Part shown: one piece after another, positions 2,228 to 4,484 of the stretch
How the letters are laid out: each line of letters begins with the position of its first letter
How positions within the stretch are numbered: the stretch's first letter is position 1
NCBI RefSeq assembly: GCF_024055725.1
Contig: NZ_JAMXMX010000009.1
Coordinates: 62,001-126,000, forward strand
Length of the DNA stretch: 64,000 bases
Direction: 5' to 3'
DNA from: Actinoallomurus spadix
GTDB lineage: Bacteria > Actinomycetota > Actinomycetes > Streptosporangiales > Streptosporangiaceae
The notes under the pieces: generated by a model
The model's database searches: none
Seen by the model: only the letters and a program-made list of their open reading frames with translations
What the model was told of the DNA's origin: nothing
Translations under genes and position numbers: made by a program

Positions 2228-4357
2228 CTAATGTCCCCGTGGCTTACGCGGGCCACGGCCGGACGCGCCCTGCTTGATGTGGTCGGGCTGCGCGTCGTAC
2301 CGGCTGTACGCGTCGACGATGGCGCTCACCAGCTTGTGGCGGACGACGTCCTTGCTGGTCAGCGTGCAGAAGCTGATGTCGTCGAGCCCTTCGAGGATGT
2401 CCTGGACGACCCGCAGGCCGCTCAGCTGCCCGGACGGCAGGTCGACCTGGGTCACGTCACCGGTGATGACGACCTTCGATCCGAACCCGAGCCGGGTCAG
2501 GAACATCTTCATCTGCTCCGGCGAGGTGTTCTGCGCCTCGTCGAGGATGATGAAGGAGTCATTGAGGGTGTTGTGCGTCAGCAGGTAGTCCTGGGTGACG
2601 TACAACGAGTCCTCGGCCGCCACCTGGATGCACACGCACTCCTCGCGGCCCGCCGGCTCGATCTCGTCGATGAAGCGCATCGGCCGCCCGCCGCCCCCGG
2701 CCGCGTGGTACTTCTCGGCCTTGCGGGCGAGGCGGAAGGGCTCGATGCCCTCGGGCAGGCGGATGTCGACGATGTGTGCGTCACTCCGGTAGCCGACGTC
2801 ACGGCCTTTCGCCCGGCCGGGCCTGCGGCCCTCGGCCACGCGCCGCCGCGTGTAGGCCACCCCGCCCAGCGACCGGACGAGCGCGATGACGTCGTCGCGG
2901 AGCAGGATCGACGTCGTCGTGAACTGGATGCGGCAGGTACGGCCGGCCTGGGTGACCGGCCCGCCGTCGCTGTCCAGCAGCCCCTGCAGCAGGGCGAGCC
3001 TGACCTCGGCGCTGTTGTGGAGGTACGCCTCCGGAACGAACCTCGTCGCCGACCGGGTGCCGCAGAGCCCGAGTTCGCGTGCGGCCGCGGTCACCGGGTT
3101 CGCGATGGTGATGACCTGGCCGGGCTCGGCGACGCGGTTCAGCACGTAGTCGACACCGCCCCTGTGGCGGACCTCGACGCCGGGCAGGAGCTCCTCCAGC
3201 GCGACGGCGAGCCCGGGGTCGTTCGTGGCGAAGGACGGCGTCGTGGAACCGGTCAGGCGACCGTCACCGAGCAGCAGACCCAGGGCGTACGGGTCCAGGG
3301 GGACCTCCCGCTCCGGGTACTGCACCGGGGCGGTGAGCAGCGGCAGCTCGTAGCGCCGGGCGTGCGCCGCGCGCAGGTTGCCGATCATCTCCCGGGTCTC
3401 CAGGACCCGCCACGGCTTGCCGCGGCGCTTGTCGGACGCCGTACGGACCGTCCACAGGTGCTCGCCGCAGCACAGCGTCCAGGCACCGTCCTGGGCGGAG
3501 ACGCGGTAGATGTCCTTCTCACCCTGCGGGTAGACGCCGAGGACCGGGGTCGGCTCGCCGTTCGATCCGACGACGAGGTCGCCCACCTTCAGGTCGCCGA
3601 TGGGGCGCCAGCCATCAGGCGTCAAAACCGGCATAAAGGTCGGCTGCGCCCGACCGCGCATGTATGCGAGAGGAGCGACCTCGATCGTGCCGGCGGCCAT
3701 GAGGCGGGGGATGGAGTCGGGGTCGACCATGTCGTGCAGCGCGTCGTACAGCGGGCGGAGGTACGGGTCGATCTTCTCGTACAGCGTGCCCGGCAGGAAG
3801 CCCAGCCGCTCGCCGGCCTCGACGGCCGGGCGGGTCAGGATGATGCGGTTGACCTGCTTGGCCTGCAGGGCCTTCACGGCCTTGGCCATGGCCAGGTAGG
3901 TCTTCCCGGTGCCCGCGGGTCCGATGCCGAACACGATCGTGTGCTTGTCGATCGCGTCGACATAGTGCTTCTGGTTGAGCGTCTTGGGGCGGATGGTGCG
4001 GCCCCGCGACGACAGGATGTCGAGGGTGAGGACCTCGGCCGGTCGCTCGGCGGTCTCGGCACGCAGCATGGCGATGCTGCGCTCGATCGCGTCGGGCGTG
4101 ATGGGCGTGCCGCTCTTCAGCAGATCGAGCAGTTCCTCGAAGAGCTTGGCGGCGAGGTCGGTCTCTTCCGGTCGACCCGTGATCGTGATCTCGTTGCCCC
4201 GGACGTGGACGTCGCTGTCGAAGGCTCGCTCCACGACCTCGAGGAGTTCGTCACGGGAGCCGAGCAGGGCGACCATCGAGTGGTCGTCCGGGATCACGAT
4301 CTTGATCTGCGTGGGCGCGCCGTCGGGCGCAGCCCCGGTCTGAGTTGATTCGGCCAT
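2228..4357 (-). CDS. phoH: PhoH-family ATPase interrupted by an intein
   Basis: A 709-residue precursor; after removal of a 360-residue intein the ATPase is 349 residues, normal for PhoH. PhoH-family proteins are cytoplasmic P-loop NTPases of the helicase superfamily, often encoded next to ybeY and implicated in RNA metabolism. Walker A (GPAGTGKT) is at residues 146-153. Walker B (FIILDEAQN) lies just after the intein, which splits the conserved sequence between AYMRGR and TLNDSF. Start: the ATG at 4357 (MAESTQ...) has AAGG about 8 bases upstream; ATGs or GTGs up to 4444 are in frame but lack a clear ribosome site. The gene is first in the phoH-ybeY-corC cluster. Confidence 0.95.
2570..3649 (-). 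mobile_element. class 3-type intein with LAGLIDADG endonuclease in PhoH
   Basis: In-frame insertion of 360 codons. It starts with Ala ([14 protein letters not shown]), not Cys or Ser, and ends LLTHN, followed by +1 Thr of the extein. Intein-numbered features: block A 1-13, block B with His64 and Trp66 (GEHLW), block F Cys340 (CVCIQV) and block G Thr358-His359-Asn360. Trp after the block B His, Cys at block F position 4 and Thr at block G position 5 are the WCT signature of class 3 inteins, which splice through the block F Cys rather than residue 1. Two dodecapeptide motifs ([10 protein letters not shown] at 121-130, [11 protein letters not shown] at 220-230) mark a LAGLIDADG homing endonuclease domain. 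Both retain the acidic residue, so activity is possible. Confidence 0.93.
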
Positions 4358-4484
4358 AGCGCGGCCTTGCGGCCTTTTCGCCCCTACCTTCCGGTCACGT
4401 CGGGTCTTCGGCTGCGTATCACCCATGGTACCGGCCCGGACCACTCAATTTCCGGCCGCGCGGAGGCGGCGGCTCATCGTCGGC

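Follow-up and report, generated by a model that had tools for sequence, protein, structure and literature searches.

Class 3 inteins are defined by Trp at B:12, Cys at F:4 and Thr at G:5 (excerpts of PMC3196547 and PMC5050341). Inteins in PhoH have been placed in this class for Mycobacterium fortuitum and M. xenopi (excerpts of PMC6195587), and M. smegmatis is described as having one intein in PhoH (excerpts of PMC7360933). In M. smegmatis, splicing of the DnaB intein, another member of the class, responds to H2O2 (disulfide Cys48–Cys118) and to zinc (excerpts of PMC6195587 and PMC7360933). The exact phrase ‘PhoH intein’ was found in no paper of the literature searched, so far as its excerpts extend; PMC6195587 and PMC7360933 describe such inteins in other words. 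Since class 3 PhoH inteins of mycobacteria are already in print, the intein analysed here belongs to a known kind and is a further copy of it.

The DNA that we analysed, referred to below as the window, is a stretch of 64,000 nucleotides from Actinoallomurus spadix; the features of its phoH gene are collected in Table 1. The insert corresponds to residues 266–625 of the precursor frame, with AYMRGR ending at position 3650 and TLNDSF starting at 2569, and its sequence begins AQPTF and finishes LTHN. Pfam matches the PhoH family (PF02562, E = 2.3e-90) in two stretches that flank the insert. On re-reading, the 360-codon in-frame insert and its borders lie exactly where the original prediction had placed them (2570–3649), and the first residue Ala, the THN end, the +1 Thr and the two LAGLIDADG motifs were all borne out. 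The host is a PhoH domain that has both Walker A and Walker B, and the insert separates the two as had been claimed. A mature PhoH of 349 residues (236 + 113) presupposes the ATG at 4357, and the frame has earlier start codons too.

Table 1. Features of the phoH locus (coordinates in the window)
Feature	Coordinates	Strand	Basis
phoH precursor gene, 738-aa frame	2228..4444	(-)	Frame read and Pfam; likely start ATG at 4357, the choice of start being inferred
N-extein, 236 residues counted from the ATG, C-terminal end AYMRGR	3650..4357	(-)	Junction reading
Walker A GPAGTGKT, inside the N-extein, before the insert	3899-3922	(-)	Motif placement
Class 3-type intein, 360 residues	2570..3649	(-)	Residues, junctions, conservation, predicted fold
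Hint splicing domain, N-terminal part, residues ~1-112: Ala1, block B His64 and Trp66 (GEHLW, 3452-3466)	3314..3649	(-)	Boundary approximate
LAGLIDADG homing endonuclease domain, residues ~113-300	2750..3313	(-)	Pfam, PI-SceI alignment, fold; boundary approximate
LAGLIDADG motif 1, 10 residues (121-130)	3260-3289	(-)	Motif placement
LAGLIDADG motif 2, 11 residues (220-230)	2960-2992	(-)	Motif placement
Hint domain, C-terminal part: block F CVCIQV (2621-2638, Cys340), block G Thr358-His359-Asn360 (2570-2578)	2570..2698	(-)	
C-extein, first residue +1 Thr (TLNDSF)	2228..2569	(-)	Junction reading
Walker B FIILDEAQN, in the C-extein, after the insert	2528-2554	(-)	Motif placement
Proposed homing footprint, core: the 25 extein nt just 5' of the insertion	3650..3674	(-)	8 bases differ from the empty G004 allele
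Other side of the proposed footprint, C-extein nt 1-12	2558..2569	(-)	In occupied alleles, uncorrelated with extein distance

The residues that define class 3 are readily identified in the insert: Trp66 lies two positions past His64, Cys340 is in block F and Thr358 immediately precedes His359 and Asn360, with Ala at position 1 and Thr at +1. Across 115 distinct PhoH inteins (the window copy and 114 others), His64, Trp66, Cys340, Thr358, His359 and Asn360 are invariant, so that the predicted WCT signature (Trp66, Cys340, Thr358) is a constant feature of the whole set. Residue 1 varies in the same set (Ala in 103, Ser in 11 and Cys in 1). An invariant internal Cys together with a free residue 1 is as class 3 splicing predicts, and a nucleophile at residue 1 would appear to be dispensable, given Ala1 here and Ala in 103 of the 115 copies. 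Three PhoH inteins are shorter (L169 and L170, 331 residues each, and L110, 345 residues) and retain the class 3 residues.

The predicted fold contains both a splicing and an endonuclease domain. LAGLIDADG_3 (PF14528) matches at 32.8 bits against a cut-off of 22.5, and two further Pfam profiles stay below threshold (Hom_end, 20.3 bits versus 21.1; Hom_end_hint, 16.6 versus 32.1). In Foldseek comparisons of an AlphaFold2 model of the intein (pLDDT 90.8), the best matches are PI-SceI (E = 2.9e-18 for the whole model) and other full-length inteins, followed by the class 3 DnaB inteins 6rix and 6bs8 (E = 3.1e-6 and 5.0e-6 for the best chains). The domain arrangement is shared with PI-SceI only roughly, as judged from an rmsd of 5.7 across 466 columns and 17% identity. 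When a profile built from 41 sequences was searched against the PDB, both endonuclease motifs aligned with PI-SceI, the N-terminal splicing region aligned to 6rix and 6bs8, including the block B His and Trp, and Trp66 and Cys340 aligned to the Trp and Cys of an engineered class 3-like gp41-1 intein (6riz), where the C-terminal block alignment is weak when taken alone (9.0 bits, i-Evalue 6.1). No alignment of block F or block G to 6bs8 or 6rix was seen in the profile or fold output. The model and the PDB matches, which include class 3 structures, are those of a Hint splicing fold. The two LAGLIDADG motifs provide the catalytic residues Asp129 and Asp228, both present in the window copy and retained in 112/115 and 114/115 PhoH inteins, respectively. 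A rough NG86 estimate for the endonuclease part, window versus G001, puts dN (0.100) well below dS (0.504).

Sequence, predicted fold and conservation all back the earlier proposal that the insert is a class 3-type intein and that its endonuclease is of the LAGLIDADG family. We are highly confident of a full-length intein of this type, with a PI-SceI-like endonuclease and located in PhoH after Walker A and before Walker B, for which splicing, cutting, homing and co-conversion are the activities that we infer. In the translated precursor, the block F Cys340 would attack the Arg(-1)–Ala1 bond to form a branched thioester, the acyl group would move to Thr+1, and cyclization of Asn360 would be accompanied by joining of the exteins to give an intact PhoH. 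The unspliced precursor would presumably be inactive, and control of PhoH through splicing is conceivable. The endonuclease would cut intein-free phoH at the codons of the RGR–T junction, and repair would copy the intein together with a short stretch of flanking DNA. Co-conversion of flanking residues upon invasion has been published (excerpts of PMC10643990).

Two questions that bear on this model are (i) whether the insert is a regular part of PhoH and (ii) how widely the site is occupied. We examined 154 loci with an intein match (some genomes twice), of which 146 are legible at both junctions; eight partial loci were dropped. The PhoH site accounts for 125 of the 146, with RGR ahead of the insert, THN at its end and Thr (124) or Ser (1) following, and the remaining 21 are in other proteins. 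The position of the insert is identical in all 125 PhoH loci. In the genus of the window, four of eight genomes are occupied, three have an empty PhoH and one (G005) has no PhoH match at 1e-50. Given intein-free PhoH in the same genus and a constant position in 125/125 loci, the insert is not a matter of chance; the comparison of relatives for presence and absence, a check that had been proposed, turned up empty sites and excludes the insertion as a normal part of PhoH.

Sampling of the bacterial class gave a PhoH-type intein match in 17 of 197 genomes (E <= 2.3e-77), and RGR is found at the junction in every one of them, the window and 16 other carriers. A sample of the family gave matches in 44 of 297 genomes (E <= 3.4e-98); among 30 carriers taken from it, the window and 28 of the 29 others are legible at both junctions, all with RGR before the insert and Thr after it, and L047 is partial. 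The original prediction had called class 3 inteins less common. This may hold for class 3 as a whole, but an intein in PhoH, present in 17/197 genomes, is not rare in the bacterial class sampled. A long open phoH frame was also considered as a sign of some other insert, but all 27 chosen loci without an intein match had an empty site, and a long frame is therefore no evidence of an insert. At one locus (G288:C86), the intein match is spread over two reading frames (residues 1–60 and 55–360), reflecting a frameshift or a sequencing error.

A phage origin, invoked in the original prediction, is a published hypothesis for class 3 inteins (excerpts of PMC5050341 and PMC3196547). By record title, the copies nearest to the window intein among the best 80 of 106 loci are chromosomal and actinobacterial (actinobacterial in all 80), with 66–85% identity in the best segment. 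Phage copies are far lower: identity is at most 38.9% among the matches listed, all 544 records lie under 60%, and a second viral search reached 41%. Phage carriers of a PhoH intein were sought among 18 viral loci, and the 12 that are legible at both junctions all have their insert in other proteins (four are partial and two below the limit). One candidate, a protein of phage MK557849.1 annotated as PhoH (QBQ74860.1, L321:517-3339), has just Hint and LAGLIDADG matches and no PhoH domain at E 0.01 in Pfam; its label probably derives from intein similarity. We also note a plasmid-collection record, NZ_LT559118.1 from Nonomuraea, that has a PhoH-type intein (69%); at 11.85 Mb, its size looks chromosomal. 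Two further inteins lie on the contig of the window: L210 (G000:C71), ~43 kb ahead of it, interrupts the DnaG primase zinc finger and ends in Gly-Asn, and L211, ~8 kb beyond it, interrupts RecA and ends in Val-His-Asn before Cys. The contig thus has three inteins, in DnaG, PhoH and RecA, inside about 116 kb.

Comparison of alleles within the genus argues for mobility. G004 has an empty site and an extein that is 99.3% identical to that of the window across 300 residues, and the exteins of the other carriers in the genus are only 90.7–92.3% identical. The window intein is up to 83.9% identical to Streptomyces copies and 79.4% identical to that of its congener L027, whose extein is at 92.3%. With 44 taxa that we chose from 112 (L074 omitted), the intein and extein trees are mutually rejected (p-AU 3.8e-44 and 5.7e-84). 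These sequence comparisons suggest that the endonuclease is probably mobile, and the element as a whole is a class 3-type intein with a probably mobile endonuclease.

The DNA around the insertion site may itself bear a record of this mobility. Between the window and G004, 8 of 25 nt differ just upstream of the insertion, versus 25 of 695 farther upstream (Fisher 5e-6, with the 25-nt limit chosen after the data had been seen). When these differences were shuffled, 0 of 20000 trials were as high at the junction and 8 of 20000 were as high in any 25-nt stretch. We then measured the entropy of synonymous codons, with a correction for the amino acid, over codons −7 to +2 and ranked the 9-codon window at the site, initially in a scan of 113 occupied and 30 empty alleles and subsequently in a larger set with controls. 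Occupied alleles have an excess of +0.44 (n = 113, rank 1/202) and empty alleles from the own family one of +0.19 (n = 74, rank 4/217). For empty alleles from other carrier families (n = 14, a single family contributing 12) it is +0.40 (rank 1/258); controls, from families in which the class sample revealed no carrier, are at −0.09 (n = 48, rank 138/201). L189–L192 count among the controls, as no carrier of their families occurs in that sample; placing these four with the other carrier families instead gives +0.23 there (n = 18, rank 8/230) and −0.09 for the remaining controls (n = 44, rank 152/198). With the four so moved, median ranks in equal-size subsamples are 1 for occupied alleles, 14 and 21 for own-family empty alleles, and 152 and 161 for controls. 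Occupied alleles have G or C at a fraction of 0.79 of third positions near the site versus 0.945 elsewhere; in controls the two values are 0.936 and 0.951. L163 and L165 are too short for the codon counts, which leaves 113 of the 115 inteins; the site motif is missing from L214 and L306. The L074 extein barely aligns (46.9%) and was kept in the codon counts, the 36-nt flank correlations and the tree-signal test but left out of the comparison of intein and extein trees and of the sliding test; without it the occupied excess is +0.45 (rank 1/206).

In the 113 occupied alleles, the 36-nt flank tracks intein distance (partial correlation 0.17, matched in 0/500 shuffles) and not extein distance (−0.005), whereas two control blocks track the extein (0.40 and 0.285) and not the intein (−0.15 and 0.07). 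In sliding blocks of 12 nt, the partial correlation with the intein at the site is modest and patchy (0.20, 0.03 and 0.16), and three blocks farther out reach 0.25, 0.21 and 0.16 as well. We also looked for the footprint as a loss of tree signal. In occupied alleles, the site block has the weakest tie to the remainder of phoH (rho 0.09; none of the 25 other blocks is as low), but in the controls it is again the lowest (rho 0.44 versus at least 0.46 for the others at n = 44; 0.33 versus at least 0.43 at n = 48; 0/25 each), and in empty alleles 11/25 (own family) and 13/25 (other carrier families) of the other blocks are as low. This test thus fails to separate the groups, and only the size of the drop differs.

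Synonymous codon diversity therefore peaks at the site where the intein circulates and not in families without a sampled carrier, with a weaker peak in the own family; such control families may still hold a carrier outside the sample, and one Micromonosporaceae record (L117) has the intein. We read the peak as a homing footprint. For occupied alleles the best fit is co-conversion; the empty ones would call for either earlier occupancy or an escape from cleavage. Our tentative proposal, about which we retain considerable doubt, is that the endonuclease leaves a readable scar, ~36 nt around the site losing the codon bias of the gene wherever the intein circulates, through repeated co-conversion in occupied alleles and through past occupancy or escape in empty ones. 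If so, formerly invaded genomes that now have no intein might be recognized by the scar, and the cycle of invasion and loss would be legible from sequence alone. A synonymous peak at intein sites was not found in the literature searched, as represented by its excerpts.

Could the peak instead be an intrinsic feature of phoH, imposed by constraint on codons or RNA, or have arisen by chance from the choice of clades? The low tree signal of the site block in controls would suit such an origin, as would a synonymous signal carried by only about nine codons. The excess is absent, however, from the 48 PhoH genes of families with no sampled carrier and from two sub-groups of the n = 44 control set, and it tracks the distribution of the intein, so that we regard an intrinsic or sampling origin as rather improbable. 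A decaying class 3 intein, which still splices but has a dead endonuclease, is now inherited vertically and has at most an old footprint, is a more serious alternative, though an unlikely one. Arg131, directly after motif 1 (3257–3259), is found in 1/115 PhoH inteins, 108/115 having Cys at that position; this unusual residue could mean that the endonuclease of the window copy is weakened. Loss of Asp129 in 3/115 and of Asp228 in 1/115, and inserts shortened to 331 and 345 residues, also point to decay within the set. Decay of the window copy is at odds with its two catalytic Asp residues and an entirely open frame, and with the empty site of G004, its nearest extein relative (99.3%), which differs from the window most at the junction.

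The remaining alternatives concern the splicing of the intein. It might act as a conditional switch, in which oxidation or metal at Cys340 holds splicing back and PhoH is turned on by conditions, as has been described for the M. smegmatis DnaB intein, also of class 3; Cys60, Cys61 and Cys338 of the window copy lie near the active-site blocks. These cysteines are found in 81/115, 80/115 and 40/115 PhoH inteins, respectively, and hence are not conserved, which rules out a redox Cys pair beside the nucleophile (Cys338 neighbours Cys340) as a general feature; we consider a switch quite unlikely. Class 1-like splicing, with the N-terminal residue used and Cys340 merely structural, could be imagined from Ser1 and Cys1 in a minority of relatives (11/115 and 1/115). 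Tori and Perler reportedly described class 3 inteins having Ser1 or Cys1 in 2011. Ala1, present here and in 103/115, is incapable of acting as a nucleophile and Cys340 is invariant, making a class 1-like route extremely improbable. The class 3-type intein with its homing endonuclease thus remains our preferred reading.

Among described systems, the PhoH inteins of M. fortuitum and M. xenopi are like the window intein in class, in host protein and, by a figure legend, in the WCT triplet (excerpts of PMC6195587); they differ in their mycobacterial hosts, a comparison made from the published description. The PhoH intein of M. kyorinense (L119) is at the same site and 71% identical. Related inteins in other proteins (L204, L171–L173, L137, L142 and others) are 32–41% identical and share Ala1 (21/21) and the THN end (20/21), but 18 of the 21 follow Gly-Lys, that is, a Walker A-like loop, rather than preceding Walker B. 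One of these, L207, ends in Thr-Tyr-Asn in place of Thr-His-Asn. PI-SceI, the yeast VMA intein, is a class 1 intein with Cys1. As the best fold match it has the same combination of a Hint domain and a two-motif LAGLIDADG endonuclease, but in a longer chain and with low identity in the best match (17%). Two class 3 inteins of mycobacterial DnaB1, 6bs8 from M. smegmatis and 6rix from M. chimaera, share the block F Cys, block B Trp and block G Thr (excerpts of PMC6195587). M. smegmatis DnaBi1 differs in having no endonuclease, in its host protein and in Asp as the first residue of the block B DxxH, where the window intein has Cys61 (excerpts of PMC6195587). The codon footprint, should it hold at other sites, would be a sequence-only record of past invasions. 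As an intein, the window copy is ordinary; its value is as a system, with one site occupied in many actinobacteria and near-identical occupied and empty alleles in one genus, which would permit direct tests of class 3 splicing with an endonuclease present, of the wait of PhoH for splicing and of the effect of homing on its target.
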